The position numbers and the translations under genes were made by a program. The notes beneath the pieces are model-generated. The model ran no database searches and was not told the origin of the DNA. It worked only from the letters and a program-made list of their open reading frames with translations. From Siphonodentalium dalli (lineage: Eukaryota > Mollusca > Scaphopoda > Gadilida > Siphonodentaliidae): DNA of 64,000 bases. This document shows, piece by piece, positions 7,341-35,064 of this stretch (positions are counted from its first letter, which is position 1; each line of letters starts with the position of its first letter). The stretch is from the NCBI GenBank assembly GCA_032622095.1, contig CP136064.1:177648247-177712246 (forward strand), written 5' to 3'.

Positions 7341-8252
7341 ATGACATCCAATGAGAACAATGAAACTCAACTCACTATGAGATATACAACATGGAATGTA
7401 CAAGGAGTCTGTCAGAAGCTAACGGACCCTGAATTTATAAGTCAATTAATAGATTATGATTTCATAACCTTAGTAGAAACGTGGCATCAAGAAATATCTT
7501 ATATCAAAATACCTGATTACGAATGCATACACTTGTTTCGAACAGGTGGTACGAAGAAAAAAGGCGGTATAGCGTTCTGCTACCGTTCGAAGTATAACAA
7601 GTTTTTTCGAGCAAGTAACAAAGTAAATGACTACGCAGTGTGCGCTGAATTTTCAGGAAAATTGCTCAATTTGTCTTCTGATATTGTTTTTGTATCTGCT
7701 TATATACCGCCCAGCAATTCTTCATTTTGGAAATCGAATCATAAAGATGAAAATGCGTTCTCAATTCTAGGGAACGCCCTTTCAAAATATAATTCGAATG
7801 AACTGATTATTCTCGGAGGGTATTTGAACGCACGCACAGGAGAACTGCCGGACTACGTTGCCACGGGCAGTGATAATCATATTAACCTACCTGATTATTA
7901 TTTATTAGATACCGATAAACCAAGGCTTAATATGGACAGTGCCGTCAACGCATTTGGCAGGCAACTTTTACAATTATGCCAGAGTACAGGCATTAGAATA
8001 GCTAATGGCAGATCAGCTGGGGATAGGATAGGCCACTTCACGAGTTATCAGTATAATGGTACAAGCGTGGTCGATTACATAATATTAACGGATAGATTTC
8101 TGCACACAGTAGATTATTTCTGTGTTAAACTACCTACCGAGTATTCAGACCATTGCCAACTAGCTCTTCACTTTGTGTATCCCTGTTCAACTCCAATTCA
8201 CAAAGCTGTAACTACAAAATTTACTTATGAAAAACAAAAAATCAAACTATAA
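7341..8252 (+). pseudogene. LINE-A ORF2, endonuclease domain
   Basis: Residues ~13-275 form an APE-type endonuclease. The visible blocks are TTWNVQGVCQK at the start, LVETWHQE (catalytic Glu region), VSAYIPPSN, SVVDYIILTD and the terminal SDHCQLALHF holding the catalytic Asp-His pair. The usual GDFN motif reads GGYLN, so a catalytic Asp is lost. The frame stops at 8250-8252 after KIKL, where one-base drift shifts the reading into the linker frame. The Met at 7341 is the first in frame, but a Met 12 codons later, just before the domain, is equally possible. Confidence 0.85.
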
Positions 8253-8689
8253 AGTGGAATAGCTTAAGTAAATACAAATCGTGCCATTTAATTAATTCAC
8301 CTTCCGTGAAGCATGAATTGACTCAGTATCGATTACGCACATACTCTAAGGACAAACAGGGAATAACCGAAGCGTTAGATGATATAATGTGTATTATAAA
8401 CAAAATAAACAGGCACGCCTGCTCCAAGGTTACCGTGAAGAAAACACATGTACGCAAAAGAAATGGTTTGATAACATGTGTAATGATTTGAAAATGAGTT
8501 TCGACAGTATCGCGAGAGAAATTAGAAATAATCCATTTAATACAAACCTAAGAACCAAATTTTTCATAATAAAAAAATCATATAAGAAGGAATTGAAAAG
8601 TAAAAGAAGAAAATTCTACGCGGAACTCCATAATAGTTTGGACGAATTAGAAACAGGTGACCCTCAACAATATTGGCGAATTATAGATG
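8253..8689 (+). pseudogene. LINE-A ORF2 linker between endonuclease and RT
   Basis: Reading continues in another frame (KWNSLSKYKSCHLINS...), then shifts again near 8460 into KKWFDNMCNDLKMSF, giving two frameshifts. The segment ends in QQYWRIID at the insertion point; the first codon past the insertion continues the same frame (DLKNKNN). Such linkers with a tryptophan-rich KKW.D motif are normal in ORF2 proteins of this LINE group. Confidence 0.75.
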
Positions 8690-9048
8690 AGTAGTAGTAC
8701 AGGAGGCTCGTTGACTGCACATCAACAAATAGATTTTTTGGCGGTAAAATTGTTTGTACTAAAATATTAAAAAAAAAAAAATTCAAAACCTAATTTATTT
8801 TTTCCAAAATTTTCAAATTTTTTTTAAAAAAATCTCAAAAATTTATGAAGCTTCGAGTTTTCGGTCTCTTACCCAAATATCGGCCGACTATTAAATGTCG
8901 AATGTTTTTTAATTATTTGCGTGTAATATCTTTTGTTATTGGCCAACTATTTTTGTTCAAACAAATTTTAAATATTTTTCAAGAAACTTTGTTAATTTTA
9001 TTAATCGATGTTTAGAAATAGCTTTATACCAATTATATGTGTAAAGAT

Positions 9049-9267
9049 TCAAACAGTATGAAAATAATCTTGGCCATTGACACTATAGGTATGAATGCAT
9101 ACATTCCAGTGTTTATCATCAGACGCAGTCTCGTCTATTACATCATATAATTGTCTCCACAATACCTGAAATAATTTGACACCATTACTCTTACATAAAT
9201 AATAATGAGCGTTTATTCTTTACTTCTCTATCCTAATGAAGTTATTGAGTATATGACACGTGTGCAT
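9049..9267 (-). CDS. terminal ORF with an in-frame TAA, left-arm copy
   Basis: Mirror copy of 16128-16346 with the same length (219 nt) and the same internal TAA after codon 15. The start codon overlaps the stop codon of the preceding 62-aa ORF (TAATG arrangement). The downstream part has clear coding character, with acidic and aromatic residues (YDVIDETASDDKHWN). Because both arms retain the TAA, it either predates the duplication or is functional. Confidence 0.4.
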
Positions 9268-9455
9268 TAGCGCGAATTATTGGAAGAATTATTGAGATAT
9301 TGTACTATTTTGAAAGCAGTCACGATCGGACGAAGAGCGTGATGCGAAATTACAACCCGAATGAACTGACATATTCTATGGAACAAATTTTCAATTATGT
9401 ACACACGCATAATCACACGCGTCAATAGGGTATCTTCAATCGTAAAATTGGGCAT
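9267..9455 (-). CDS. 62-aa orphan ORF, left-arm copy
   Basis: Mirror of 15940-16128 with one amino-acid difference (V/L near residue 18). It is basic and hydrophobic, starting MPNFTIEDTLLTRVIMR and ending NNSSNNSR. No family is recognised. Retention in both arms supports a real gene of the element. Confidence 0.5.
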   Translation of the reverse strand: MPNFTIEDTLLTRVIMRVYIIENLFHRICQFIRVVISHHALRPIVTAFKIVQYLNNSSNNSR

Positions 9456-9683
9456 AAGTGTATTTTGAGTATGTTAGTACTATAGTACTATATATTTTGA
9501 GAATCGTTGATAAAAATGGGCGTAAGTATATTTTAGATATTTGAGCGTGTCCAAAAAATTTCAAAAACTTCAAAAACTTCAAAAACTTTCAAAAATTTCA
9601 AAAATTTCAAAAACTTCAAAAATTTCAAAAATTTCAACAATTTCAAAAAACTTGAAATATTTCAAAAACTTCAAAAATTTCAA

Positions 9684-9869
9684 TATAATGAAGATGACGA
9701 GCAACCAATTTTCGACTGGCCTGAGGCATTACGTTATGGAATGAATAACGACAGCGGATCAGAATGTGATCATACACGCAATAATAGAAGTTACTTTGAT
9801 GTTGTTGTTATGAATAGAATTTTATCAACCTTACGTATTAACAGTTTATTGAGTTATGCATACATATAG
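9684..9869 (+). CDS. 61-codon acidic orphan coding segment, left-arm copy
   Basis: This frame continues from a minisatellite that encodes Phe/Lys/Gln-rich repeats (9541-9683) into YNEDDEQPIFDWPEALRYG and ends at TAG 9867-9869. It runs toward the centre, opposite to most genes of the arm. Indels in the TTCAAAAACTTCAAAAATT repeat have thrown the upstream Met out of frame, so the true start is probably near 9541. The identical segment exists at 15537-15722 on the other arm. No family is recognised. Confidence 0.5.
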   Translation, partial: YNEDDEQPIFDWPEALRYGMNNDSGSECDHTRNNRSYFDVVVMNRILSTLRINSLLSYAYI

Positions 9870-10082
9870 TACGTCACCTGGACATTTTATCAGTTTATCA
9901 CGTGATCACTAAATGTAGCAATCAGGTATCCACCGATGCCTGCAATGTATTATTTATAATAATTGGACTAATTTATCTCACGTAAATAATACTCTTAGTT
10001 GTTCCAATAAAATAGTTATCAAATTCGATCACCAATAGATTTGACTGTGGAATATAACGACCTTTAACTTATTTATCGATCT

Positions 10083-10262
10083 ATGTTAGAACATGGTCTT
10101 AACAAAAAACATGACCATAAAAAAAATTACCTTACCTTTATGCATGAATCTAATTTGACCATGCGTAAATATTGTCAGCTTATCATTGGATTTACTAATC
10201 AGCCGATAAGCTCAGGTACAATTGTATCATGTTTACATGGACTGACTGCGGTCATAGTGTGA
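10083..10262 (+). CDS. 59-aa orphan ORF with hydrophobic C-terminus, left-arm copy
   Basis: A complete ATG-to-TGA frame of 59 codons. The N-terminus is rich in His, Lys and Asn (MLEHGLNKKHDHKKNYLTF). Residues ~35-59 are hydrophobic with Cys residues and could form one membrane segment. The mirror copy at 15144-15323 differs at three noted sites: two silent changes and one Lys/Asn change. It converges on and overlaps the ORF at 10233-10439 by about 30 bp. No family is recognised. Confidence 0.5.
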   Translation: MLEHGLNKKHDHKKNYLTFMHESNLTMRKYCQLIIGFTNQPISSGTIVSCLHGLTAVIV

Positions 10263-10439
10263 CGAGCAAAATGTGATGTTTACACACTTAAGCTCTGGAT
10301 AAACAATACATATCGCATCTGAATGAATTTCTGGAATGTAGGTTAGCCATGCGTTCACAGACACTGGAATAAAATAGTCACTGTCTATAGAGAAGTATGA
10401 CCTTGTACGTAAATAATAAAGCGCGTTATCGAATATATG
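10233..10439 (-). CDS. 68-codon open coding segment without ATG, left-arm copy
   Basis: Mirror of 14967-15173, open for 68 codons. It begins with a NALYYL peptide at the CGCGCTTTATTATTTACG motif and continues DYFIPVSVNAWLTYIPEIHS to a TAA. There is no in-frame ATG before the upstream stop, so it would need splicing, a non-AUG start or readthrough. Two substitutions relative to the other arm (E/D and D/H) leave it open. Confidence 0.45.
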   Translation of the reverse strand, partial: HIFDNALYYLRTRSYFSIDSDYFIPVSVNAWLTYIPEIHSDAICIVYPELKCVNITFCSSHYDRSQSM

Positions 10440-10516
10440 TTACACCATATCTCCCCTCCCCACTTATAGATATATAACGAAAACGAGAATAATATGTTGA
10501 TGAAGTTTATTGAAAT

Positions 10517-11068
10517 TTAATCATTGTCAGAATCTTCGACCGTTAGATTTATTTCTAACAGTTTCTTGAATTTTCTCATCGCTTCATCTGCAGCCCATTC
10601 ATTATCATATCCGTGTTTGGTCAGTTTGACCATTTTCTTCATGATCATGTTATGTAGGGGTGATGTTTTCAATCGATACTGGTATTCTATTAATCGTCTA
10701 TAACTTTTGAGAAAGAGAGCAAACTCTGTGTCGATGGTAGCCTCTTCTCCCGACATGCTCTCTTCTCCTTTCGCATCATTGGTGACGCGTTTCATCATAC
10801 TTTTGAATGTGTCCATCTCGTTGACACATCGCGCAGCTTTCTTACGACCGAATACCGTTCTACTACCGGCGACAGTATTATCTTCTGAATCTGACGAAGC
10901 GGTTCTAGATTCAGATTCAGATGAACGGGGAACGATATCAGATTCTAGGTCATCGGTATCGTCTCCGAAGAAATTTGTCTCGGACATAACTACGTGTTTA
11001 AGCTGTTTATGTCTTTGTAGATTGTAGTTCGTCGATAAAATAATTCCGCATAAATGACACCCGTGCAT
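10517..11068 (-). CDS. 183-aa C2H2 zinc-finger protein, left-arm copy
   Basis: A single N-terminal finger has C4-C7-H20-H25 spacing (CHLCGIILSTNYNLQRHKQLKH region). An acidic Ser/Asp/Glu-rich stretch follows (residues ~35-65), then a Lys/Met-rich helical C-terminal half. Only one residue differs from the right-arm copy (T/I near residue 64). It may bind DNA or RNA of the element, but that is inference from the finger alone. The start codon lies in the shared TTCCAATAATTCGCGATAATG motif. Confidence 0.75.
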   Translation of the reverse strand: MHGCHLCGIILSTNYNLQRHKQLKHVVMSETNFFGDDTDDLESDIVPRSSESESRTASSDSEDNTVAGSRTVFGRKKAARCVNEMDTFKSMMKRVTNDAKGEESMSGEEATIDTEFALFLKSYRRLIEYQYRLKTSPLHNMIMKKMVKLTKHGYDNEWAADEAMRKFKKLLEINLTVEDSDND

Positions 11069-11256
11069 TATCGCGAATTATTGGAAGAACGATCACTCTT
11101 ATAAGTAGCGATAAAAAGAGAGAATAAGGTGTGGTATACAACACTCACGTTAAGAGTGCGTTCGTCCCGGGTCTAGGGTATAGATCTTTGACCGCCGGTG
11201 ATTCAATTAATGCCAATTTATCAGTATGGTACTCTATGTATTCATTCATGATTTGG

Positions 11257-11580
11257 CTAATCGTATGACACTTTTCTTTTCATTTTCTTCTTATTATTAG
11301 ACAAACCTCCAGCTAACACTCTCTTGTTGGTTTGTTTGGACGCTTTACGTGTGTTTGTCAACTTATTTGCTGCAACTTCGGCCTTAGCCATTTCAATCGC
11401 TTGACCGATGGGCGTCACTACATTAATATGTGGTTTTAGAACGTCTTCTTCACTATCACTATTTTTAGTTCTGTCAATAAAGTATCGACCCTTATTATCT
11501 GGCGTTAACTTCCCATCAAGCATGTCTCTGAAATGTTTTCTCCACGGTTCAATATCTGCTGGAATATACGGGATCGATAT
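11257..11580 (-). pseudogene. 105-aa basic orphan protein, left-arm copy with lost start codon
   Basis: Mirror of 13843-14160. The start codon is ATA (11578-11580) instead of ATG, and the stop is displaced by a one-base change so the protein ends KVSYD instead of KVS. The rest (DMLDGKLTPDNKGRYFIDR...) is intact. Translation could begin only at an internal Met (11523). Confidence 0.6.
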
Positions 11581-11771
11581 GTTTCTTCAAATGTAGTGTA
11601 CAAGTCACTCTTTTTTCTGCATTTTATTTTAGAAAGTTTATCGACTCTTATAAAAATCGATTATCTGGATATTTATTAATCGAATCGTCGCTAGTCAGGT
11701 ACAGATAATAATTATCCATATGACTATAGTTTCTAAAAAAAAACAATTCAAAGAGAATCATTATTCTTCTT

Positions 11772-11995
11772 CTCTTATAGTTTTATTGATATCACTGAAT
11801 ATATGCTTGAAGATTGACCACTGGTTCAAATTTAACGGAATACCTATAATCGTCGGAGTGTTATACACAACTCGCCTAATGTCTGTATAAATGTGTCCTT
11901 GATTATTACATAATGTAACAGTAATGTTTGATCGTATTGTCCACTTTTTTCACGAAAACACACGGGTGTTGTTCGTAATCATTGGGGTGTGACAT
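11772..11995 (-). pseudogene. 74-aa orphan ORF, left-arm copy, frameshifted
   Basis: Mirror of 13438-13662. The MSHPND start is retained, but a short insertion (encoding YEQHPC-like residues) and a one-base change near 11950 break the frame. The downstream part (NQGHIYTDIRRVV, NLNQWSIFKHIF) is recognisable. Confidence 0.5.
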
Positions 11996-12230
11996 TAGTA
12001 TGAAGTAATTCATAATCAACCGACTCACGCGGTATCTTCTTTGGAACTAAAATAAATGGTAGTGACACAGTGATTACCATAATAGTAATTCCTATCCATT
12101 TAAGGAGATTCATATGTGGACGACCACGTTCTGTTTGAAACGTATTCGTCAAGGTACCTGTTCTATTATCCATGATTGTAATTGTTCTCGTGTACAACTT
12201 ACTCTTATTAATTTTGATATCTGGCGACAT
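11979..12230 (-). CDS. 83-aa single-membrane-segment protein, left-arm copy (intact)
   Basis: A basic N-terminal ~40 residues (MSPDIKINKSKLYTRT...) is followed by one strongly hydrophobic segment at ~43-62 (KWIGITIMVITVSLPFILV) and a short tail. It resembles a type II or tail-anchored small membrane protein. Small membrane proteins are common in virus-like DNA elements, but no homologue is recognised. It overlaps the next gene slightly. The right-arm copy is broken after the membrane segment by a 2-bp deletion. Confidence 0.55.
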   Translation of the reverse strand: MSPDIKINKSKLYTRTITIMDNRTGTLTNTFQTERGRPHMNLLKWIGITIMVITVSLPFILVPKKIPRESVDYELLHTNVTPQ

Positions 12231-12347
12231 CAGACTCTAAAATCCATGAATTAAATTTGTCTGGCCATGAATGCCAAATGCACCATGATAGTTATCGATG
12301 TCAATAATGCGTTTCGTTGAGATCTTGATTGAGTATGCACCAATCAA

Positions 12348-12659
12348 TTAACAATGACACAGAATATCACCCAAAGTATATTCAAAGGGGGTGAGAAAAA
12401 GAGCAAATGAGCAAAAAAATGAGCAAATGAGCAAAAAAATGAGCAAATGAGCAAAAAAAATGAGCAAATGAGCAAAAAAATGAGCAAATGAGTGTTGTTG
12501 TTGTTGTTGTTGTTGTGGCTGATGATACTGTTGTTGTTGTTGTTGTTGTTGCTGATGATACTGTTGTTGTTCTGAAGGCTTGTGTTTAACTTTGATATGA
12601 CGTTTCAAACTATCTTGCCAAGCATAGACACTTGAGCATTCTTCACATTGATACTTCAT
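12348..12659 (-). CDS. single-copy C2H2 zinc-finger protein with polyglutamine, in the palindrome spacer
   Basis: The N-terminal finger has C5-C8-H21-H26 spacing (CEECSSVYAWQDSLKRH). It is followed by Gln/His-rich repeats from ~30 to 55, then a hydrophobic Phe/Leu/His stretch encoded by a GAGCAAAAAAAT-type microsatellite, so the C-terminus is probably an artefact of repeat expansion. It is the only gene of the element present once. The finger resembles that of the 183-aa protein, suggesting an old duplication. The start is the first ATG, 12657-12659. Confidence 0.6.
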   Translation of the reverse strand: MKYQCEECSSVYAWQDSLKRHIKVKHKPSEQQQYHQQQQQQQQQYHQPQQQQQQQHSFAHFFAHLLIFFAHLLIFLLICSFFCSFALFLTPFEYTLGDILCHC

Positions 12660-13020
12660 TTTCCTATATAATCAGTGAAATCGAGCGTTCTTCTATGCAC
12701 CTATATTTATATAGAACAGAAACAAGGGCAACGTGGTGGACTAGTTAACTAGTTCAGGCTGTCGTTCACAACGTCTCTTCGTGTTGTTTGTACTGGATAC
12801 AAATTTGTCACATTGGCTACAATACAACCTACCTATCCAAATGTCGATGCAATTATGAGTGATTTCAATATGAGCACTCTATTATATAGATATGTGTAAC
12901 CTGGTGACATGATGAAATCGATTGTGATACAAAGCTAAAGTACCGACCATAGGGTAGATACATAGCTAAAGTACCGCTATAGAGCAGAAGCTAACGGCTC
13001 ATAGAGCGGTATTTTAGCTT
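12660..13020. other. rest of the palindrome spacer; no gene seen
   Basis: This is unique sequence between the arms. Near 12943-13018 short repeats of AAAGCTAAAGTACCG and an inverted pair (AGCAGAAGCTAACGGC / TTTTAGCTTCTGCTC) could form a hairpin at the loop of the palindrome. This is a natural place to look for the fold-back junction. Confidence 0.5.
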
Positions 13021-13202
13021 CTGCTCATTTGCTTTTTCTCACCCCCTTTGAATATACTTTGGGTGATATTCTGTGTCATTGTTAATTGATTGGTGCATAC
13101 TCAATCAAGATCTCAACGAAACGCATTATTGACATCGATAACTATCATGGTGCATTTGGCATTCATGGCCAGACAAATTTAATTCATGGATTTTAGAGTC
13201 TG

Positions 13203-13406
13203 ATGTCGCCAGATATCAAAATTAATAAGAGTAAGTTGTACACGAGAACAATTCCAATCATGGATAATAGAACAGGTACCTTGACGAATACGTTTCAAAC
13301 AGAACGTGGTCGTCTACATATGAATCTCCTTAAATGGATAGGAATTACTATTATGGTAATCACTGTCACTACCATTTATTTTAGTTCCAAAGAAGATACC
13401 GCGTGA
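13203..13406 (+). pseudogene. membrane-peptide gene, right-arm copy, frameshifted
   Basis: Mirror of 11979-12230. The N-terminal 56 residues match. A 2-bp deletion in the CACTGTGTCACTACC stretch (CACTGTCACTACC here) shifts the frame inside the membrane segment, so the protein ends early in SSKEDTA. Confidence 0.6.
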
Positions 13407-13437
13407 GTCGGTTGACTATGAATTACTTCATACTAAT

Positions 13438-13662
13438 ATGTCACACCCCAATGATTTCGTTTTCGTGAAAAAGTGGATAATACGATCAAACATTACTGTT
13501 ACTGTTACATTATGTAATAATCAAGGACACATTTATACAGACATTAGGCGAGTTGTGAATAACACTCCGACGATTATAGGTATTCCGTTAAATTTGAACC
13601 AGTGGTCAATCTTCAAGCATATATTCAGTGATATCAATAAAACTATAAGAGAAGAAGAATAA
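13438..13662 (+). CDS. 74-aa orphan ORF, right-arm copy
   Basis: It starts MSHPNDFVFVKKW and ends NKTIREEE, with a beta-strand-like composition (Ile/Val/Thr alternation). It overlaps or abuts the membrane-peptide gene. The left-arm copy has a short insertion and a frameshift, so this may be the better-preserved version or one that lost residues. No family is recognised. Confidence 0.5.
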   Translation: MSHPNDFVFVKKWIIRSNITVTVTLCNNQGHIYTDIRRVVNNTPTIIGIPLNLNQWSIFKHIFSDINKTIREEE

Positions 13663-13842
13663 TGATTCTCTTTGAATTGTTTTTTTTTAGAAACTATAGT
13701 CATATGGATAATTATTATCTGTACCTGACTAGCGACGATTCGATTAATAAATATCCAGATAATCGATTTTTATAAGAGGCGATAAACTTTCTAAAATAAA
13801 ATGCAGAAAAAAGAGTGACTTGTACACTACATTTGAAGAAAC

Positions 13843-14160
13843 ATGTCGATCCCGTATATTCCAGCAGATATTGAAACGTGGAGAAAACATTTCAGAGACA
13901 TGCTTGATGGGAAGTTAACGCCAGATAATAAGGGTCGATACTTTATTGACAGAACTAAAAATAGTGATAGTGAAGAAGACGTTCTAAAACCACATATTAA
14001 CGTAGTGACGCCCATCGCTCAAGCGATTGAAATGGCTCAGGCTGAAGTTGCAGCAAATAAGTTGACAAACACACGTAAAGCGTCCAAACAAACCAACAAG
14101 AGAGTGTTAGCTGGAGGTTTGTCTAATAATAAGAAGAAAATGAAAAGAAAAGTATCATGA
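13843..14160 (+). CDS. 105-aa basic orphan protein, right-arm copy
   Basis: N-terminal block MSIPYIPADIETWRKHF, a middle acidic patch (NSDSEED), and a C-terminal Lys/Arg-rich tail (KKKMKRK) that looks like a nuclear localisation or nucleic-acid-binding tail. Basic, small and compact, it could be a core or DNA-binding protein; that is speculation from composition. It keeps its ATG, unlike the left copy. Confidence 0.6.
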   Translation: MSIPYIPADIETWRKHFRDMLDGKLTPDNKGRYFIDRTKNSDSEEDVLKPHINVVTPIAQAIEMAQAEVAANKLTNTRKASKQTNKRVLAGGLSNNKKKMKRKVS

Positions 14161-14318
14161 ATGAATACATAGAGTACCATACTGATAAATTGGCATTAAT
14201 TGAATCACCGGCGGTCAAAGATCTATACCCTAGACCCGGGCCGAACGCGCTCTTAACGTGAGGGTTGTATACCACACCTTATTCTCTCTTTTTATCGCTA
14301 CTTATAAGAGTGATCGTT

Positions 14319-14343
14319 CTTCCAATAATTCGCGATAATGCAC
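14319..14343 (+). promoter_or_regulatory. conserved start-site motif, zinc-finger gene
   Basis: CTTCCAATAATTCGCGATAATGCAC spans the ATG (14338) of the 183-aa gene, and the same motif with C for A recurs at 16109-16133 across the ATG of the terminal ORF. Both arms carry both copies, so four occur in the element. It is either a shared cis-element at the start site or the trace of a gene duplication (both proteins begin MH.CH). Confidence 0.5.
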
Positions 14344-14889
14344 GGGTGTCATTTATGCGGAATTATTTTATCGACGAACTACAATCTACAAAGACATAAA
14401 CAGCTTAAACACGTAGTTATGTCCGAGACAAATTTCTTCGGAGACGATACCGATGACCTAGAATCTGATATCGTTCCCCGTTCATCTGAATCTGAATCTA
14501 GAACCGCTTCGTCAGATTCAGAAGATAATATTGTCGCCGGTAGTAGAACGGTATTCGGTCGTAAGAAAGCTGCGCGATGTGTCAACGAGATGGACACATT
14601 CAAAAGTATGATGAAACGCGTCACCAATGATGCGAAAGGAGAAGAGAGCATGTCGGGAGAAGAGGCTACCATCGACACAGAGTTTGCTCTCTTTCTCAAA
14701 AGTTATAGACGATTAATAGAATACCAGTATCGATTGAAAACATCACCCCTACATAACATGATCATGAAGAAAATGGTCAAACTGACCAAACACGGTTATG
14801 ATAATGAATGGGCTGCAGATGAAGCGATGAGAAAATTCAAGAAACTGTTAGAAATAAATCTAACGGTCGAAGATTCTGACAATGATTAA
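14338..14889 (+). CDS. 183-aa C2H2 zinc-finger protein, right-arm copy
   Basis: Same protein as 10517-11068: finger C4-C7-H20-H25, Ser/Asp/Glu-rich middle, Lys-rich helical end (KKMVKLTKHGYDNEW). It is the longest intact gene of the element. CAATAAAC follows the stop within 10 bp and may be the poly(A) signal. The stem of related words (CAATAATTCGCG) upstream links it to the distal ORF. Confidence 0.75.
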   Translation: MHGCHLCGIILSTNYNLQRHKQLKHVVMSETNFFGDDTDDLESDIVPRSSESESRTASSDSEDNIVAGSRTVFGRKKAARCVNEMDTFKSMMKRVTNDAKGEESMSGEEATIDTEFALFLKSYRRLIEYQYRLKTSPLHNMIMKKMVKLTKHGYDNEWAADEAMRKFKKLLEINLTVEDSDND

Positions 14890-14966
14890 ATTTCAATAAA
14901 CTTCATCAACATATTATTCTCGTTTTCGTTATATATCTATAAGTGGGGAGGGGAGATATGGTGTAA

Positions 14967-15173
14967 CATATATTCGATAACGCGCTTTATTATTTACGTA
15001 CAAGGTCATACTTCTCTATAGAGAGTGACTATTTTATTCCAGTGTCTGTGAACGCATGGCTAACCTACATTCCAGAAATTCATTCAGATGCGATATGTAT
15101 TGTTTATCCAGAGCTTAAGTGTGTAAACATCACATTTTGCTCGTCAGACTATGACCGCAGTCAGTCCATGTAA
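14967..15173 (+). CDS. 68-codon open coding segment without ATG, right-arm copy
   Basis: Open from 14967, just after an in-frame TAA, to TAA at 15171-15173. It begins at the GCGCTTTATTATTTACG motif, read as NALYYL, then continues with strongly protein-like sequence (SVNAWLTYIPEIHSDAICIV). There is no ATG; a pyrimidine-rich acceptor-like ACTTCTCTATAG lies inside at ~15023. Either it is an exon or it starts elsewhere. Its tail overlaps the opposite-strand 59-aa ORF. Confidence 0.45.
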   Translation, partial: HIFDNALYYLRTRSYFSIESDYFIPVSVNAWLTYIPEIHSDAICIVYPELKCVNITFCSSDYDRSQSM

Positions 15174-15323
15174 ACATGATACAATTGTACCTGAGCTTAT
15201 CGGCTGATTAGTAAATCCAATGATAAGCTGACAATATTTACGCATGGTCAAATTAGATTCATGCATAAAGGTAAGGTAATTTTTGTTATGGTCATGTTTT
15301 TTGTTAAGTCCATGTTCTAACAT
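15144..15323 (-). CDS. 59-aa orphan ORF with hydrophobic C-terminus, right-arm copy
   Basis: Intact mirror of 10083-10262, with one amino-acid change (N for K near residue 13) and two silent changes noted. It is convergent and overlapping with 14967-15173. The compact, overlapping arrangement is more like a virus-type element than host DNA. Confidence 0.5.
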   Translation of the reverse strand: MLEHGLNKKHDHNKNYLTFMHESNLTMRKYCQLIIGFTNQPISSGTIVSCLHGLTAVIV

Positions 15324-15536
15324 AGATCGATAAATAAGTTAAAGGTCGTTATATTCCACAGTCAAATCTATTTGTGATCGAATTTGATAACTATTTTATT
15401 GGAACAACTAAGAGTATTATTTACGTGAGATAAATGAGTCCAATTATTATAAATAATACATTGCAGGCATCGGTGGATACCCGATTGCTACATTTAGTGA
15501 TCACGTGATAAACTGATAAAATGTCCAAGTGACGTA

Positions 15537-15722
15537 CTATATGTATGCATAACTCAATAAACTGTTAATACGTAAGGTTGATAAAATTCTATTCATAACA
15601 ACAACATCAAAGTAACTTCTATTATTGCGTGTATGATCACATTCTGATCCGCTGTCGTTATTCATTCCATAACGTAATGCCTCAGGCCAGTCGAAAATTG
15701 GTTGCTCGTCATCTTCATTATA
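15537..15722 (-). CDS. 61-codon acidic orphan coding segment, right-arm copy
   Basis: Mirror of 9684-9869 with the same sequence from YNEDDEQPIFDW to the TAG. The upstream Met at 15889 starts a frame (MIKMGVSIFSIFERV then (FKN)n repeats) that an indel in the minisatellite has shifted. The gene is thus a repeat-containing N-terminus plus this acidic C-terminus. Confidence 0.5.
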   Translation of the reverse strand, partial: YNEDDEQPIFDWPEALRYGMNNDSGSECDHTRNNRSYFDVVVMNRILSTLRINSLLSYAYI

Positions 15723-15939
15723 TTGAATTTTTTGAGTTTTTGGAAATTTTTGAAATTTTGGAAGTTTTTGAAATTTTGGAAATTTTTGAAGTTTTTGAAA
15801 TTTTTGAAGTTTTTGAAATTTGTGAAAGTTTTTGAAATTTTTTGGACACGCTCAAATATCGAAAATATACTTACGCCCATTTTTATCAACGATTCTCAAA
15901 TATATAGTGCTATAGTACTAACATACTCAAAATACACTT

Positions 15940-16128
15940 ATGCCCAATTTTACGATTGAAGATACCCTATTGACGCGTGTGATTATGCGTTTGTACATAA
16001 TTGAAAATTTGTTCCATAGAATATGTCAGTTCATTCGGGTTGTAATTTCGCATCACGCTCTTCGTCCGATCGTGACTGCTTTCAAAATAGTACAATATCT
16101 CAATAATTCTTCCAATAATTCGCGCTAA
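15940..16128 (+). CDS. 62-aa orphan ORF, right-arm copy
   Basis: Mirror of 9267-9455. It has a basic/hydrophobic amphipathic pattern (RICQFIRVVISHHALR). It ends in TAATG, so its stop overlaps the next start, an arrangement suggesting coupled translation or simply compaction. Confidence 0.5.
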   Translation: MPNFTIEDTLLTRVIMRLYIIENLFHRICQFIRVVISHHALRPIVTAFKIVQYLNNSSNNSR

Positions 16129-16346
16129 TGCACACGTGTCATATACTCAATAACTTCATCAGGATAGAGAAGTAAAGAATAAACGCTCTTTATTATTTAT
16201 GTAAGAGTAATGGTGTCAAATTATTTCAGGTATTGTGGAGACAATTATATGATGTAATAGACGAGACTGCGTCTGATGATAAACACTGGAATGTATGCAT
16301 TCATACCTATAGTGTCAATGGCCAAGATTATTTTCATACTGTTTGA
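16128..16346 (+). CDS. terminal ORF with an in-frame TAA, right-arm copy
   Basis: ATG 16128-16130, fifteen codons (MHTCHILNNFIRIEK), TAA at 16173-16175, then the same frame stays open for 56 codons to TGA 16344-16346. The second part begins RINALYYL over AAACGCTCTTTATTATTT and reads like genuine protein (QLYDVIDETASDD). Splicing, readthrough or an old nonsense mutation shared by both arms are the options. An AATAAA overlaps the region just after the TAA. Confidence 0.4.
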
Positions 16347-16702
16347 ATCTTTACACATATAATTGGTATAAAGCTATTTCTAAACATCGATTAATAAAAT
16401 TAACAAAGTTTCTTGAAAAATATTTAAAATTTGTTTGAACAAAAATAGTTGGCCAATAACAAAAGATATTACACGCAAATAATTAAAAAACATTCGACAT
16501 TTAATAGTCGGCCGATATTTGGGTAAGAGACCGAAAACTCGAAGTTTCCTAAATTTTTTAGATTTTTTAAAACTTTTTTTGAAATTTTGGAGAAAAAAAA
16601 ATTAGGTTTTGAAAATTTTGTTGTTGAATATTTTAGTACAAACAATTTTACCGCCAAAAAAATTATTTTTTGATGTGCAGTCAACGAGCCTCCTGTACTA
16701 CT
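16347..16702. other. right terminal region of the palindromic element; no gene seen
   Basis: AT-rich terminal ~350 bp ending in the TIR terminus. It contains homopolymer A/T runs and the block TTGATGTGCAGTCAACGAGC. The mirror is 8690-9048. It is a likely site for terminal recognition signals. Confidence 0.6.
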
Positions 16703-18126
16703 TAGATGACTTAAAAAATAAAAACAATAAACCATCGGATGATTTGGATGATGACTCAGCTACTGACTTTTTCAAAAATCTGTACTGCCCTACTCAACCT
16801 AATTCTTCAGGAAATGGTCCACCAATATGTCGATCTAAAACACCAGACATATCTCTCAATAATGGTCCAATCAGTGCGGATGAAATTCTGTCCGCCACGT
16901 GTGAGCTTAAAACAAGAAAGGCGGTAGGCCCGGATCAGATTTCGAATGAATTTCTCAAATGTGCAGTACCTCTAATGACTGCCGAATTTGTTCAAACATT
17001 CAACAACATTTTACAATCCGGATATTACCCACCTGAATGGAGTCAGTCTGTTCTCAGTTTAATACATAAAAAGGGAGCAAAAGACGATCAAAATAATTAT
17101 CGTGCAATAGCACTGAGCTCGTCAGTAGGGAAACTATTCAATAAAATTATTAATCACAGATTAGCTACATTTATCGATGCTAACAACATAATCAGCGAAA
17201 ACCAATTCGGGTTTTTTACTGGCAAAAGTACAGCCGACAGCACCTTTGTCCTACATGCGTCAATACAGAAATATAAATCCTCTAAGAGACCTGTCTATGC
17301 AACATTTGGCGATTTTATGAAAGCTTTTGATACTGTTAATCGACAAAATCTTTTTAGAAAAATGGAAACAGTTGGCATTTCAGGATTTTCATTGGAAATA
17401 TTAAAATCACTATACAAGTCAAGTCTTTATAGCACAAATATAAGTAAAGGTATCAGTCCTTCACATCTCTCCACAATTGGAGTACGCCAAGGATATATAT
17501 TATCGCCCTTACTATTTAAAATATCCATTGATGACATTAAGGACATTTTTTTCGATGACAAATGTGAACCGTTACGTATTGGATCTAGCGCTCTCAATCA
17601 TTTGCCCTTCGCAGATGACTTAGTTTTTGTCTCTGAGAGTCCAGAAGGACTTCAGCGATGTTTAGACAAACTCCAGTCCTTCACGCGACAAAATGCCATG
17701 TCGATAAACACGGAGAAGACGAAATGCTTGATTTTCAGAACGAGGAAGCCAAAAGTTAACCCACAGTTTTTTCTCGAAGATAATCACTTGGATCTGGTTA
17801 ACGAATATACCTATCTCGGAATGACGTTTTCCAGCACAGGAAAATTCACGCAGGCCGTAAATAATTTGAGTGGCAAAGGACGAAAAGCTATTTATTCAAT
17901 ATCTCGTACGTGTGCAAATAAAGCGCCCCTCCCTCTAAAAACTTCCCTTAAACTGTTTGATAAGTTAATCAAGCCTATACTTCTATATGGCAGTGAATTA
18001 TGGGCAAGTGAATTAACAATCAAAAATCACGAACCTTATCCGTGTGAGAAACTTCATATCACACATTGCAAACAAATATTTGGAGTCGGTAAATACGTTT
18101 CAAACAATGCAGTCAAGCCGAATTAG
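16703..18126 (+). pseudogene. LINE-A ORF2, reverse transcriptase domain
   Basis: It resumes the frame interrupted at 8689 (DLKNKNNKPSDD). RT landmarks in order: TRKAVGPDQISNEFLK, LSLIHKKGAKDDQNNYRAIAL, ISENQFGFFTGKSTADST, GDFMKAFDTVN (first catalytic Asp block), GVRQGYILSPLLF, and LPFADDLVFV (the YADD-equivalent, FADD). The domain is nearly complete and open for more than 470 codons, so this copy decayed only recently. The frame ends at TAG 18124-18126, where a frameshift leads into the C-terminal part. Confidence 0.9.
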
Positions 18127-23098: not shown

Positions 23099-26000
23099 TT
23101 ATTGTACTCGTTTTCTTATAAAGTAATCTTTTAAATATTTAAGGTATTCTGGGCTACTAATTTTAATGCGTAGTGTGCAGTCTGCGGGGAGGCTATTCCA
23201 TAATTCTCGCGCTTTGTTTGAGATTGCACTTTTTGAGTTTTTAGTCCTTTTGAATTCATGATAAAGATTACCTTTTGTTTTTGCGCGGGTATTATAGCTA
23301 TGGATATCTTCAATATGTTTGAATAATTTTGATAACGAATCCGGTAGTGCATGCATATGATAATCATGTAGTATTCTAATGAGCTGCATGTTACCAATAT
23401 CATCAAATATTAGTAGTTTGTTTAGTTTATAATAAGTCATAATATCACTTGTATCATTTGAGATAATTTTAAGGGCATTCTTCTGTAGTTTTCTGATTTT
23501 GGTTAGTTTCTTTTTGGTAGTTGAGCTCCATATTGCGTTACAATAGGTCAAGTAGGGGATAATTAGTGATAAGTATAAGGTTTTCAAAGTTTTTGCAGGA
23601 ACAAATTCACTGACTTTCCTCAGGATTCCAACATTACTGGCAAGTTTAGAGCATAATGAATTTATGTGTTTGTCCCAGGATAAATTGTCTTCAATAGTGA
23701 TGCCTAAAAATTTGGTTTTGCCACTCTACTAACATTTTTATTGTTTATAGTTAGGACTGGTAATACCTCAGGTAGTGAACAATTAGTGAAAAGCATGTAA
23801 TTTGTTTTATCAATGTTCAATGACAGTTTATTAGCAGCAAACCACTGATTCATATAATCCAGTTCAGTGTTAACTCTGTTAAATAATTTGTGGATATCTC
23901 TATCAGAACAAAATGCATTTGTGTCATCTGCAAAAAGTATCAATTTAGCATCCTTGCATATACTTGGTAAGTCATTCATATAGATTAAAAATAAGAGTGG
24001 CCATAAGATTTAGCCTTGTGGGACCCCACAGGTAATTTCATTGAGTTCTGATATATGGCCATCATATTGAACGCATTGTTTTCTATGAGTAAGATAATCC
24101 TTGAACTAGTTCCGTGCAACCCCTCGACATCCATAGTGCTCTAGTTTTTGAAGCATTATTCTATGATTGATTGTATCAAATGCCTTAGATAGGTCGAGGA
24201 ACACTCCAATTGTGTGTTCGTGATTGTCTAAGGCACCAGTTATTTTCTCTATAAGGTCAGTCAAAGCTAGAATTGTGGAATGATTCTTCCTAAAGCCATA
24301 CTGGCTGCTGTATAAAATCTTGTGTTTTTCTAAGTATTTATTTAATCTATTATACATGAGTTTTTCAAGTACTTTTGAAAAGATAGGTAGCACAGATACA
24401 GGTCTGTAGTTACTGACTATACTTGCATCTTTAGATTTGAAGATTGGGGATACTTTAGCAAATTTCATTCGTTCTGGGAATACACCTTGGGAAAGAGATA
24501 GGTTACAGATATGTGTCAATGGTACGATACAGGAATCTGCACATTGTTTTAAGATGCCACATTTAAGTTCATCTAAGCCAGCTGGTTTTTTGAGTCCTTA
24601 TTTTTCAGTATGTATATTATTTCTAATTCTCCAGCAGGTTCAACAAATAATGAAGATGGGTTGGGAAGGGGAAGAAATTCCTTTGGGTCATTGGTTGAAT
24701 TTATCTTTTTTGCTAGATTATGACCTATATTTGTAAAAAATTCGTTGAATTTTTCTGCAATTTTGTTTTTACCACTTATATACTTATTTTCATGTTGAAA
24801 TTGTGTCACATTAGTTTTGTTTTTATTTCGATTAAGTATTTTTTTCAGAACAGTCCATGTTGATTTCATGTCACCTTGGTAGCGTTCAATTTTTTTGTAA
24901 TAGTAATGTTGTTTGGCCATTCTTATTATGAATATTAATCTGTTTTTATATGACTTGTACCTTTCATTGTTAATTTTAGATTTGTTTTCTATAAATTTTT
25001 TATATAGTTTATTTTTTCTTTTAATGATTTAATTATTCCTGTTGTTACCCAGGGATTGTTATTCTGAGTTCTGATTTTCTTTCTACATTTAGGAAAGCTA
25101 TAGTTGTAAGCATCAGTCATCATATCAATGAATGTATTATAAGATGAGTTGCAGTCGGTGGCGTTGTTCACATTGCTCCAGTCCATAGTTGATGTCATGT
25201 TGATGAAGGTTTGAATATTTTGTATTGAAAATTCCCGTTGGAAGATGTACGTTGCTTTGTTTTGGTGTTGTTCTTTATCATGACCTCTAATTATAAGGAA
25301 TATTGGTAGGTGATCAGATATATCTTCAACAAAAATTCCTGAGTATTTCGGTGATGAGTGGTGACAGTTGGTGAAAATGTTGTCTATCAGGATTGCACTG
25401 AACTCAGTTATTCGTGTTGGCTTGGTGATCATTGGGAGGAACATAAATGATTTCAAGAGATTGGTAAAGTGTTTCTCTGCATTATTCTCTGAGCCTAGGT
25501 TAATATTAAAGTATCCCATAAGGATACAATTCCTTCTCTCTTTGGATATCTTTGACATGATTGATTCCATTTTTTCCATAAATTTCTCAAGATCTGAGTT
25601 TGGGGGCGGTATATACATCCTACTATTTGTTTTTCCCTGTGTTATCTTCTACTTCGGCGAAAATACTTTCCAGATAGTCAGTGTTAGTAGTTAAGTCAGA
25701 TCGGATTTCAGCTTTTAATGATGTGTGAATATATAGTCCAACTCCCCCTCCGCCTTTATCATTTCTATGTTTTTCTACTAAGTTATATTCATTAAGTTTC
25801 ATGAGGTTCATTGGTGAGTTATCAGCTAACCAAGTTTCAGTAATACCTATAATGTGAAAGTTGTGCTTACAATTGTTGAGGAAGGTTGATAATTTATCTA
25901 TGTTTTTATTTATTGATCTTATGTTAAAATGGATCAAAGATGCTGATATACTGCTTTCGATATCTTTGATTTTTTCATTGAATTCTTCTAGTAATAGATA

Positions 26001-26381
26001 ATTGGAGGAATTTTGTTGGTTTAAGGTGTCTAGTAAGTTGTCATCATCATTAAATTCATTTTGAAAATTATCATTCAGTGTAAAAGGGTTTGTTATAAGT
26101 GGTTTTATATTTGGTAGTTCTAGGTGGTTAAAATCTTGATTCATGTCATATTTTGCTAATTTGAAAAGGGCTTCTTCATCAATGTTGTTGAAAGGGAAGA
26201 TTTCCTGGATACAATGATAGCAGAACCAGGGTGAGTTATCTTCATCTAACCTTTTTAGATCAGTTTTTGTTAATTTAGAGAATTTCAAATGAATCCACTG
26301 GTCACACAAGTCACATCCCAGAGCATCTTGCTTGTTTCTTACTGATTTGTTACAGGTTGAGCAAGGATATTTTATCGGCAT
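23099..26381 (-). pseudogene. LINE-B ORF2: PHD finger, endonuclease, RT
   Basis: MPIKYPCSTCNKSV starts at 26381. PHD finger follows with one zinc ligand changed (WIHLKF where a Cys is expected). Endonuclease: LIHFNIRSINKNIDKL, ITETWLADNS, then a frameshift near 25620, MYIPPPNSDLEKF, MGYFNINLGS (GDFN altered to GYFN) and SDHLPIFLI. Frameshifts near 25015 and 24580. [48 protein letters not shown], stop and shift near 24106, LILFADDTNAF at ~23930. C-terminal LYLSLIIPYLTYCNAIWSS and WNSLPADCTLRI near 23200. It cannot encode an active protein. Confidence 0.9.
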
Positions 26382-27682
26382 TGCAGTTTGTGGTTGGGGT
26401 GGGTGGGGGTAGGGGTTACAAAGAGAGTAAAGTAGAAGAGAGCAGCGTGGAGGAGGTGCAGTTGGATGAAACAAATACAAAAAAAAGAAGAAAAAACAGA
26501 CAAAAAGATCACTTGTATAGTTATCTGTTTTCAAAGCTATGCGTGTTGTAAGCTAAATATATGAGATTTCATAGTTTCAGAGGTTTAATTTATTTTTCAC
26601 TACATGTATGTTTATATACAGTGCATTTTGAATTTTTTATTTATTTTTAATTTTTAAGCTGTAGGATTATAGAGTACCGGTATGTGAGACCAATCATTGT
26701 AGACTAATGAGGGTAATTTAATTTGATGTCATAAGTATGAGCTTATATGTTCTAGGTTCTAGTCAAGCTGCTCATATACCTAGTGTTATAAAAGAAAAAA
26801 ACAACTTTGAGTGAAGACAAGAAATATAGTTTCACGCAGACAAGAAATTTTGTTTCATGCAGGAAGAGAAAGTGGTCATAAAAATAATAGGAATTGGGAA
26901 ACAGAATTATGACAAGAGATATGATTTCATGCAGGAATAGCAAGCATAAATATAATAAGCATACATGAATAAAGATATTAGAAATATTTCATGCAATATG
27001 CAATACATTTTACAAGTTAGGCTTTAATATGGGCCTTATTTGTTCAACTACTATTGTCATTTTATGACTTAGTAAGTTAGTATATTTGAATTTAGATTTG
27101 CACTGATATCATCTGAATTAAATATTCTAGTAAGGTACGTCATCAGTGCTATGGTGGGATGATACCATTATATCCAGATCATGGTCTGGACCTACACTCA
27201 CATCGTTATTCAATTCAGATTATATTTAGTAACTAATGAGTATTTCAGGTGGAAATAAATACGCTTAAGTGTATAAAGGCCTAACACTCTAATTCAACTT
27301 ATAAGTTATGATCATTTAGATCGGGTCTAATATTCTAATTCAAATTATAAATTATGATGATTTAGATAGGAAGACAAACATAAATGTGGTATCATGCAAT
27401 AAGAAAAGATAGAACATGATTTGCACTGGATGTTAAAGCTATATACATTTAGCATGCAGATAACATGAGATGATATTTGTGTAAGCATACCAGGACAACA
27501 ACATTGATTCATACAATCAAATCACACTGGACAGTGTAAGTTGGTTACAGATAGCACACCATGAGTAGATGGGGGACACTGAATACATAAGCATAGACAA
27601 ATTAGGAATAAACAAACAAACAGGAACAAAGAAGAACAGGTAGATGTACATGCAAATTAGGCTTATGAGCCAACTTGTCTTT
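26382..27682. other. LINE-B inter-ORF region; no gene seen
   Basis: About 1.3 kb separates ORF1 and ORF2, longer than usual for CR1-type elements. It is AT-rich, with loose repeats of TTTCATGCAGGAA / ACAAGAAAT between 26815 and 26990. Either the ORF1 3' part has decayed beyond recognition or another insertion sits here. Confidence 0.5.
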
Positions 27683-32178: not shown

Positions 32179-32212
32179 ATTCCCTCTCTATATCTATCTC
32201 TATATATATATA

Positions 32213-34790
32213 CTAGAAGGTGACCCGACTTCGTCCGGGCTTTGACCTTGAATTGACCATTTTGAAGGTCAAAGTCAGGTGGGGTCAAACACCAACACCC
32301 CAAAAATGGTGGAAATCGGCCCAGCGGATACCGGGAAATCGGCCCAGCGGATACCGAGATACCCTATGCATCAAATTTCGTCCGTAAAACTCCGCCAGTA
32401 TAACCCGATTTGATTTCCACTCAAGTATATAAACGCGCCTCATATACACACGCTCATTAATTATCAAGTTTCAACGTAAAGATAAATATTACCATCGGTG
32501 CCCGAGATATCGCCAAGACGTCTGAAACAGTCAAATGCATCGGCCGGTTAAGCGTTAACGTGATCTAACGTTATGACCTCTAACGACGTCATAGAAATTA
32601 CGCATTGTTTTTATCCTGATGGAAGATAGTACCACTTCTTCTTGATAATTGAGGCAGATAACTAAAACGGATACATACGCATTATATATCGTTGGAAAGA
32701 GGAAACACGAAAGATTCTCACAGTGTCATTATTATGACTGGCATTTTATTATTCGCGCTGTTTCGAATCGATTTGTAAGCACCGAACTCAAATGAAAGTC
32801 CCGTAACACAGCGTAAAAACAGATTTGACCTCGGCACGTGAAAAGTTGACATCGGATCTGAAAATTAATATGCCTATGATACTCCCCGGCCGAACATACC
32901 CCCACATACCAAGTTTCATCGAAATCGGCTCGGCCGTTTTCGAGTTCATCGATTACAGACAGACACACACACAGATCTTCCAAAATATATAATAGACTAG
33001 AAGGTGACCCGACTTCGTCCGGGCTTTGACCTTGAATTGTCCATTTTGAAGGTCAAGGTCAAGTGGGGTCACGATTTGACCAGTCGAAACACTGCCCCGA
33101 CAAACGTGCCAGTCGAAATCCATCCGGTATTACCCGATTTGACCTTGAATTGATCATTTTGAATGTCAAGGTCAGGTTGGGGTCACGATTTGACCCGCCC
33201 AAAACACTCAGTGGACAAAAGTAACCCTATGTATAACATTTCGTCGAAATCCCGTCAAATTTGGCGATTTGACCTTGAATTGACCCGATTTCAAGGCCAA
33301 GGTCATGTCGCACGGGAAAATTAATATGCTTATGAGACTCCCCATATGAAAGTACCCCCACGTACCAAGTTTCATCGAAATCCCGTGATATTCGGGCGTT
33401 TGACCTTGAATTTGGCTTGAAATGACCTGATTTCAAGGTCACGCCGCACGGGCAAATTAAAAGATTATGCCACTTCCCGACCGAAGGTACCCCCACATAC
33501 CAAGTTTCATCGAAATCCCGTGATATTCGGGCGTTTGAAATTACCCGATTTTAAGGTCAAGGTCACGTCGCACGGGCAAATTAATAGGCCCATGTCACTC
33601 CCCGGCCGAAAATATCCCCACATACCATGTTTCATCAAAATCGGCTCGGCCGTTTTCGAGTCCATCGATTACAGACAGACAGACACACACACAGATCTTC
33701 CAAAATATATAATAGACTAGAAGGTGACCGACTTCGTCCGGGCTTTGACCTTGAATTGTCCATTTTGAAGGTCAAGGTCAAGTGGGGTCACGATTTGACC
33801 AGTCGAAACACTGCCCCGACAAACGTGCCAGTCGAAATCCATCCGGTATTACCCGATTTGACCTTGAATTGATCATTTTGAATGTCAAGGTCAGGTTGGG
33901 GTCACGATTTGACCCGCCCAAAACACTCAGTGGACAAAAGTAATACTATGTATAACATTTCGTCGAAATACCATCAAAATTGGCGATTTGACCTTGAATT
34001 GACCCGATTTCAATGCCAAGGTCACGTCGCACGGGAAAATGAATATGCTTATGAGACTCCCCTTATGAAAGTACCCCCACGTACCAAGTTTCATCGAAAT
34101 CCCGTGATATTCGGGCGTTTGACCTTGAAATGACCCGATTTCAAGGCCAAGGTCACGTCGCACGGGCAAATTAATTTGCTTATGAGACTCCCCATACGAA
34201 AGTACCCCCACATACCAAGTTTCATCGAAATCCCGTGATATTCGGGCGTTTGACCTAGAAATTACCCGATTTCAAGGTCACGTCGCACGGGTAAATTAAT
34301 AGGCCCATGTCACTCCCCAGCCGAAAATACCCACACATACCAAGTTTCATCGAAATCGCCTCGGCCGTTTTTGAGTCCATCGATTACAGACAGACACACA
34401 GACAGACACACAGATCTTCCAAAATATATAATAGACTAGAAGGTGACCCGACTTCGTCCGGGCTTTGACATTGAATTGACCATTTTGAAGGTCAAGGTCA
34501 GGTGGGATCACGATTTGACCCGTCCAAAACACTCCCTGGAAACAATTACCACTAAGTATCAAATTTCGTCAAAATCCGTCTGGCAGTTTACCAACACCAA
34601 CACCCCAAAAATGGTGGAAATTGGCCCAGCGGATACCGGGAAATCGGCCCAGCGGATACCGAGATACCCTATGTATCAAATTTCGTCCGTAAAAATCCGC
34701 CAGTTTTACCCGATTTGATTTCCACTAAGGTATATAAACGCGCCTCATATACACACTCTCGTTAATTATCAAGCTTCAACGTAAAGATAA
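32213..34790. mobile_element. head-to-tail pearl-like elements with ~120-bp core repeats
   Basis: Units start TAGAAGGTGACCCGACTTCG at about 32215, 32997, 33717 and 34437, and end in (ACAGACAC)n then AGATCTTCCAAAATATATAA. Between are ~120-bp core repeats: TTTGACCTTGAATTGACC, AAGGTCAAGGTCACGTCGCA, GAGACTCCCC and CCAAGTTTCATCGAAATCC. Tandem cores, a CAGA microsatellite and a fixed head match the pearl architecture known in bivalves. The 33001 and 33721 units are near-identical, ~720 bp apart, so they arose by tandem duplication. Confidence 0.65.
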
Positions 34791-34821
34791 ATTAGCATTG
34801 TGTAGTAAATTTTAACTAATT

Positions 34822-35064
34822 ATGTTCTCGCCGTCAAAGTTGAACAATGTCGATGTTGTTGGCATTGACGGTTTGTGGCCACCGGTAGATTCCAACAGCG
34901 AAATAGCATTTCAGCTAAATGGATTCTTGGATGAGATTCCAGACCCGCGGGGTAAATGTAAACAACTTGAGCCTATGCGTGGTGTAAATATACAAAAAAT
35001 AAATCTATCGACAATAGACCTAAGAGTATCAGCTGTAACAAAATTTATATGTCAGAAATTGTAA
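34822..35064 (+). CDS. 80-aa orphan ORF downstream of a repeat-borne TATA box
   Basis: Intact frame MFSPSKLNNVDVVGIDGLWP...TKFICQKL, with plausible protein composition up to about residue 50 (LNGFLDEIPDPRGKCKQLE). It lies ~90 bp downstream of GGTATATAAACGCGCC, a TATA-like element carried by the adjacent repeat family. The LDEIPDPR block faintly recalls the N-terminus of ISAs1-type transposases; this is not strong enough to name it. Confidence 0.3.
   Translation: MFSPSKLNNVDVVGIDGLWPPVDSNSEIAFQLNGFLDEIPDPRGKCKQLEPMRGVNIQKINLSTIDLRVSAVTKFICQKL

Follow-up and report, generated by a model that had tools for sequence, protein, structure and literature searches.

How could a palindrome of 8 kb, with ends like those of Polinton/Maverick transposons and with no polymerase or integrase match in its scanned frames, come to lie inside another mobile element? 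The question is raised by the element at positions 8690-16702 of a 64,000-nucleotide stretch of contig CP136064.1 of the scaphopod Siphonodentalium dalli (the window; plain coordinates are positions within it). A preliminary description had interpreted it as a Polinton-type element that folded back on one terminus and whose product was integrated as a non-autonomous unit. The inverted duplication of one terminus is borne out by our analysis, and folding back during protein-primed replication would account for it. Instead of a single snap-back product, however, the element is one copy of a propagated family, as its centre is shared by five separate insertions. We consider it probable that this non-autonomous Polinton relative is an inverted dimer of one terminus, a fold-back product that turned into a helper-dependent, two-headed satellite.

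Structure of the palindrome in the window

The element and its surroundings comprise the following features.

8690-16702: palindromic element, 8,013 bp
8684-8689: left copy of the target-site duplication TAGATG, perfect 6 bp
16703-16708: right copy of the target-site duplication TAGATG, perfect 6 bp
8690-8698, plus strand: left terminal motif (AGT)3
16697-16702: right terminal motif (ACT)2
7341-18126, plus strand: host long interspersed nuclear element (LINE) with endonuclease and reverse transcriptase pieces, split by the element

The left end reads AGTAGTAGTACAGG and the right end, as reverse complement, AGTAGTACAGG. In the portion of the vertebrate survey used here (PMC8097293), Mavericks likewise have a 6-bp duplication and (AGT)2//(ACT)2 ends. 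The window element thus combines the terminal traits of the Polinton/Maverick lineage, namely a 6-bp duplication, an AGT-type tandem repeat at inverted ends, and homology of these ends to those of an element with polymerase and integrase. Joining the LINE flanks without the element restores one frame across the site (GDPQQYWRIIDDLKNKNNKPSDDL), in agreement with the preliminary description; independently of the insertion, the LINE frame is also interrupted between 8252 and 8383. Both arms of the palindrome terminate precisely at the (AGT)n tips, and outside them lie one LINE and a single 6-bp duplication. This indicates that a ready-made linear palindrome was inserted as a unit, as had been proposed.

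8690-12416, plus strand: left arm
13019-16702, minus strand: right arm, which repeats the left arm in inverted orientation
12417-13018: unpaired segment of about 600 bp, partner-less in the window copy
12396-12492: GAGCAAATGAGCAAAA minisatellite, the rejoining place of the second arm
12982-13026: hairpin with a 13-bp perfect stem and a 19-nt loop, its second stem strand being a second-arm stub

The two inverted arms of about 3.7 kb (8693-12416 and 13019-16702) are 96.8% identical over 3,733 columns, with 11 gap events in total. If two AT-rich tracts are set aside, mismatches number 34 among 3,445 compared positions (0.99%). Within the tracts they amount to 19/100 (8756-8855) and 18/127 (9554-9690); this divergence of 19% and 14%, compared with about 1% elsewhere and in the first tract without length change, is unexplained. 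According to the arm alignment, both ends of the element are copies of one terminus, as in a snap-back genome. A wider internal duplication around a 39-bp repeat (90%) in each arm was considered and rejected, as the extended alignment scored 55.5, below the shuffle maximum of 59.5.

The segment between the arms had been described as a unique loop of about 610 bp. An unpaired segment of about 600 bp does exist; it did not form the fold, whose turn would lie at the hairpin 12982-13026 (z -5.9 in the surrounding 101 nt; one of eight such stems in the 64 kb, five of which belong to one tandem array). Much of 12417-13018 is present in both arms of L010 and L011 (L-numbers denote zinc-finger loci elsewhere in the same genome), which means that the second-arm copy is missing from the window element. 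In L010, L011, L013 and L018 the second arm starts at 12982-12994, and in L010, L013 and L018 it is gapped or repeated further out. These starts identify the hairpin as the centre of a fuller ancestral palindrome. The unpaired segment is best read as most of the centre together with sequence deleted from one arm. In L015 the second arm rejoins inside the same GAGCAAATGAGCAAAA minisatellite, with a different junction sequence.

A family of palindromes with a common centre

Each arm carries a small zinc-finger gene, by which related loci can be recognised.

10517-11068, minus strand: gene for a 183-residue protein with a C2H2-type finger, left arm, open
14338-14889, plus strand: gene for the 183-residue finger protein, right arm, open

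The two copies of the protein differ by one residue, and the finger is matched by Pfam with E 0.0044, under the cut-off. Selection on the gene was not shown by the arm differences (2/552 compared with 32/2,893, p 0.15). A search of the genome (2.23 Gb, 9 contigs) for the zinc-finger gene gave 45 matches, with 40 of 1,681 first-look candidates scored; the counts are a lower bound. We found at least 29 zinc-finger loci, comprising 11 inverted, outward-pointing pairs and 18 single genes. Twenty of them are closely related (group A: the window, L009-L016 and L018-L028); the other nine are L017 and L029-L036.

Second arms were sought in 10 kb fetched per locus, with L017, L032 and L036 cut by the fetched ends. 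An inverted second arm is present at 23 of the 29 loci. Within group A, 16/20 loci repeat the terminus in inverted orientation as a second arm; no such arm was found within the fetched 10 kb at L020, L021, L022 and L026. Seven of the nine loci outside group A (L017, L031-L036) have inverted arms or symmetric blocks, and at L030 neither a terminal repeat nor a second arm was seen. The zinc-finger gene lies in both arms at no fewer than 15 loci (the 11 pairs plus L031, L034, L035 and L036).

Twelve group-A members out of 20 (the window element plus 11 of 19 others) have a perfect 6-bp duplication with AGT...ACT ends. These insertions have 12 different duplications, some of them of low complexity (TATATA, TTTATT), and range in size from 4,141 to 8,171 bp. 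The duplication has one mismatch in L016 and L018 and is obtained in L010 only if the right end is set one base short; no duplication combined with an AGT...ACT end pair was found at L014, L020, L021, L022 or L026. Group-A arms can be as short as 0.4 kb or as long as 3.7 kb, and in most copies one arm is shorter than the other. The approximate unit positions at which the second arm rejoins differ widely:

9091: L025
10511: L028
10547: L027
10562: L023
10787: L024
11194: L014
11482: L016
11593: L012
11743: L009
12416: window
12420: L015

In spite of these different rejoining points, the 27-base centre string CATAGAGCGGTATTTTAGCTTCTGCTC is identical in the window, L010, L013, L016 and L023, all of which are separate insertions. 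L016 has a 67-bp stub at the centre before its second arm begins at 11482, and the short arm of L023 nevertheless keeps a centre stub. In L011 the sequence reads through 12999 and returns from 12994, with no core between the arms. The alignments did not reach the centre in L009, L022, L025 and L028. L013 shows an identical deletion junction in both arms, absent from the other group-A loci (n=20). Since five separately inserted copies share one centre, the palindromic form itself was propagated. To judge from the differing rejoining points, many copies seem to have lost part of one arm next to the centre, either before or after insertion.

Several loci deviate from this pattern. L031 and L033-L036 are diverged, with zinc-finger genes 87-92% identical and with inverted arms around apparently other centres; within this subgroup L036 has 3.7-kb arms that are 99.5% identical. 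L029 (6,470 bp) has a perfect 6-bp duplication and matched ends, with a terminal repeat of merely about 150 bp. At L024 the right-hand tip occurs twice within 0.6 kb (C3:147688504 and 147689070), which might reflect a partial duplication of the end.

A full-size Polinton, the genes of the element and the matched tips

A potential source of replication functions was found in the same genome.

C3:147031684-147047771: full-size element, 16,088 bp (16.1 kb), target-site duplication GACGTT

The terminal inverted repeats (TIRs) of this element measure 1.28 kb (1,280 aligned columns, 98.2% identity). Its ends are 87-93% identical to the window ends and 89-95% identical to other family copies over 1.0-1.5 kb (20 longest rows). 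The tip pair C3:147031684/147047738 encloses a PF03175 polymerase with a 923-residue open frame. A 3-kb inner piece contains an integrase (rve E 6.2e-13, chromodomain E 5.8e-6) and a P-loop open reading frame (ORF) with AAA matches under the cut-off. The membrane-protein gene of the C3 element has 86% protein identity over 56 residues with the membrane segment of the window element. Window positions 12006-12288 and 12289-12334 match the inner piece (93%) and flank a 1.6-kb gap; these 1.6 kb, carrying most of the C3 integrase ORF, are missing from the unit of the element. The full-length parent expected in the preliminary description has thus been found in part: end type, polymerase B, integrase and one shared gene.

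At least 69 loci of protein-primed polymerases were scored in the PF03175 search, nearly all with open frames. Most frames are about 950 residues long, and a second class has about 1,312-1,330, which points to a large and seemingly young Polinton load.

The window element itself was already thought to be non-autonomous, and our scan concurs. Its longest stop-to-stop frame has 186 residues, and polymerase, integrase, packaging ATPase, protease and capsid had no match in the frames scanned (some small frames lay outside the scan). Judged from its ends and gene content, the element is a non-autonomous Polinton relative. Besides the zinc-finger gene it carries the following.

13843-14160, plus strand: gene for a lysine-rich small protein, right arm
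11257-11586, minus strand: lysine-rich gene, left-arm copy, which has no ATG where the right-arm copy starts
13200-13662, plus strand: gene for a membrane segment and a possibly PC4-like protein, right arm, split over two frames
11764-12236, minus strand: left-arm copy of the membrane/PC4-like gene, broken too
12348-12659, minus strand: second C2H2 finger ORF followed by polyglutamine, spanning the boundary of arm and unpaired segment

The lysine-rich gene has a longer open form in L022. Its protein contains LAGGL, which we take to resemble adenovirus-protease sites; as a protease site this was rejected as weak, a motif of such kind occurring in 102 of 2,000 shuffles. The adenovirus-protease Pfam family had no match anywhere, and the controls likewise had none, so this negative is uninformative. 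In L020, L022 and L026 the membrane/PC4-like gene stays open in one frame over 158 codons. Against PDB sequences, PC4 was reached with E 0.3-0.5 using a 74-residue piece and gave no match with the 156-residue form. The single-sequence model had a predicted local distance difference test score (pLDDT) of 60, and its structure matches were Pur-alpha, Sub1 and T5 PC4 (E >=0.26), with unrelated folds further down. The modelled resemblance of the membrane-segment protein to PC4 is weak.

Outside the genome, protein searches with the 183-residue, PC4-like and lysine-rich proteins returned nothing. In viral contigs, one stretch without a locus encodes a relative of the 183-residue protein and is perhaps a record of the genome itself; no relative of the PC4-like or lysine-rich protein and no exact tip match was found there. 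PHROGs and NCBIfam gave weak matches only to the element proteins.

We further compared the tips of these elements. A 34-base tip pattern had 207 matches in the genome and none in the reversed control. Pairing by position gave 29 convergent sets among the matches listed (100 of 207). These represent 24 tip variants, six pairs being zinc-finger loci, and 25 of the 29 pairs are identical over 20 bases, with five differences where shuffling gave 136 on average. Both arms could be aligned over the tip region 8866-9432 in 11 elements, and in nine of these each arm has its nearest relative within the same element (exceptions L015 and L019); own arms differ by 0.2-3.4% in those nine, and the mean distance to other copies is 4-7%. 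Any recent element with terminal repeats should have matched tips, which attest to end homogenisation or youth and do not on their own indicate fold-back. Re-copying of arms or tips may be the mechanism behind them, to which the junction common to both arms of L013 also points.

Two further pairs of convergent identical tips are candidate full-size elements, 23.0 kb apart at C3:195207624-195230604 and 16.2 kb apart at C1:108247962-108264168. They enclose none of the listed polymerase matches. Elsewhere in the window, remnants of another LINE (PHD-finger, endonuclease and reverse transcriptase pieces) lie at 23099-26552 on the minus strand, and related repeat blocks are common to 32200-37340 and 47720-48150.

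Origin of the palindrome and comparison with known systems

The palindrome would be explained most simply if a protein-primed strand had folded back at the centre hairpin while still being synthesised. A strand primed at one (AGT)n terminus would be extended by protein-primed strand displacement until it reached the small hairpin in a repeat-rich stretch, where it would fold back and copy itself out to its own 5' terminus. The product would be a palindrome with a working terminus at each end, which might then be replicated and inserted repeatedly with the polymerase and integrase of full-size Polintons in the same genome. Deletions beside the centre would shorten one arm and would thereby have left the window copy with its unpaired segment of about 600 bp. 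A more specific proposal is that the palindrome became a heritable satellite, replicated and inserted many times in palindromic form by polymerase and integrase acting in trans, and that its arms or tips are re-copied from one another in every round, whereby new tip variants would reach both ends at once; this is plausible, at somewhat less than an even chance.

Several observations weigh against the satellite interpretation. No replication intermediates were seen, and the fold-back is what we infer from integrated copies. In the mid-arm region 10385-11250, with an average difference between copies of about 1%, none of nine elements had its two arms closest to each other (one tie), and support for re-copying is therefore confined to the tips. 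The centre probe matched 10 loci, of which L014, L015, L019, L020 and L024 have no second stem strand; these five break off inside or ahead of the centre string. Arms of 1.1-1.5 kb in L019, L023, L024, L027 and L028 are about as long as the C3 TIRs and could be ordinary TIRs. The membrane gene points towards the terminus in the window unit and away from the left end in the C3 element, a rearrangement for which we have no explanation. Its PC4 Pfam match has E 0.004-0.05, under the cut-off, and is absent in L026, and DUF4971, an unrelated family, outscores PC4 in two of the three open copies (L022 and L026). Lastly, an immediate parent bearing the zinc-finger block was not found: among 29 zinc-finger and 69 scored polymerase loci no element combined both genes, the nearest polymerase lies 642 kb from any zinc-finger locus, only one of the 29 listed tip pairs encloses a scored polymerase, and most polymerase genes are not tied to these ends.

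The main alternative is that the family represents internal-deletion derivatives of Polintons whose terminal repeats grew by recombination, without any fold-back. The 1.28-kb TIRs already present in the parent-type C3 element, the second arms of merely 1.1-1.5 kb in several members and the wide range of arm lengths in group A would all fit such growth. We nevertheless think it unlikely, considering that in L011 the two arms adjoin at the centre hairpin without an intervening core, that shorter-armed copies such as L016 and L023 keep centre stubs, and that the TIRs of intact vertebrate Mavericks measure 46-1,447 bp in the part of the survey consulted (PMC8097293). That no more than one of the 29 tip pairs holds a listed polymerase shifts a little weight from the satellite interpretation to this one. 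It is similarly doubtful that the palindrome was never propagated and that every locus goes back to its own snap-back, each time at the same hairpin of a single-armed parent. The varied rejoining of second arms (about 9091 to 12994), tips that mostly match within and differ between elements, and L036 with its long, nearly identical arms and apparently different centre would agree with repeated events. They are opposed by the common 27-base centre string in the five insertions named above and by the four one-armed loci, in whose fetched 10 kb no single-armed parent with a block past the hairpin was found. L022 ends before the hairpin, and beyond the unit these loci have nothing in common except one repeat, near the L026 junction and 4.6 kb past the L022 junction.

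The remaining explanations have very little probability. Chromosomal palindromes can arise by break repair or inversion, and the inverted duplication might thus have formed after insertion. Such an event should have copied host flank, whereas the arms end at (AGT)n within one LINE and one duplication, which refutes it for the window copy; 12 insertions with duplications directly outside such ends make it very improbable for the family. Palindromes are also prone to chimeric reads, yet an assembly or library artefact is hardly credible: the arms show 1% divergence beyond the AT tracts in addition to 11 gap events, the LINE runs on across the site, inverted second arms recur at 23 of 29 loci, and related elements with other duplications occur elsewhere in the assembly. 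A Foldback/Galileo-type or other DNA transposon with long TIRs would share the long inverted arms carrying internal repeats; it is just as improbable, given the Maverick-type ends and duplication and the presence in the genome of a Polinton that encodes polymerase and integrase, matches these ends and has a gene in common with the element.

Foldback/Galileo elements have a P-superfamily transposase and different ends and duplication. The window element resembles them in its long, internally repetitive inverted ends of variable length, as far as the sources consulted describe these, and differs in that no transposase of that kind was seen in it. With Teratorn, a fusion of a herpesvirus and a piggyBac transposase, no kinship in ends or genes was seen in the part of the source used (PMC6431247). 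The closest relationship is with Polintons/Mavericks, with which it shares the 6-bp duplication, the (AGT)n//(ACT)n ends and a family-mate encoding polymerase and integrase in the same genome. According to the same portion of the vertebrate survey, Mavericks measure 12.7-24.6 kb with TIRs of 46-1,447 bp, their terminal repeats are interpreted as serving jump-back in protein priming, and protein-primed replication of Polintons is deduced from gene content and terminal repeats (PMC8097293). In contrast, the window element has 8.0 kb, 3.7-kb arms and two termini that are copies of one end. Palindromic Polinton derivatives were not reported among the papers listed in the literature searches, with subscription papers mostly outside reach.

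Integrated palindromes whose tips match, whose centre is shared and whose second arms vary are a natural record of extrachromosomal Polinton DNA. They imply linear inverted-dimer molecules as integration substrates, with both ends of one molecule changing together. RNA copy-back genomes are not known to be integrated, and inverted-duplication defective genomes of adenovirus were reportedly described by Daniell in 1976. As far as our sources cover copy-back and snap-back defective viral genomes, the window element resembles them in the inverted duplication of one terminus and in its probable helper dependence. Unlike the RNA copy-back genomes, it is DNA, presumably protein-primed, integrated with a duplication and part of a propagated family. 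It would also provide an example of DNA transposons parasitised by a defective genome, testable with reads and purified enzymes.

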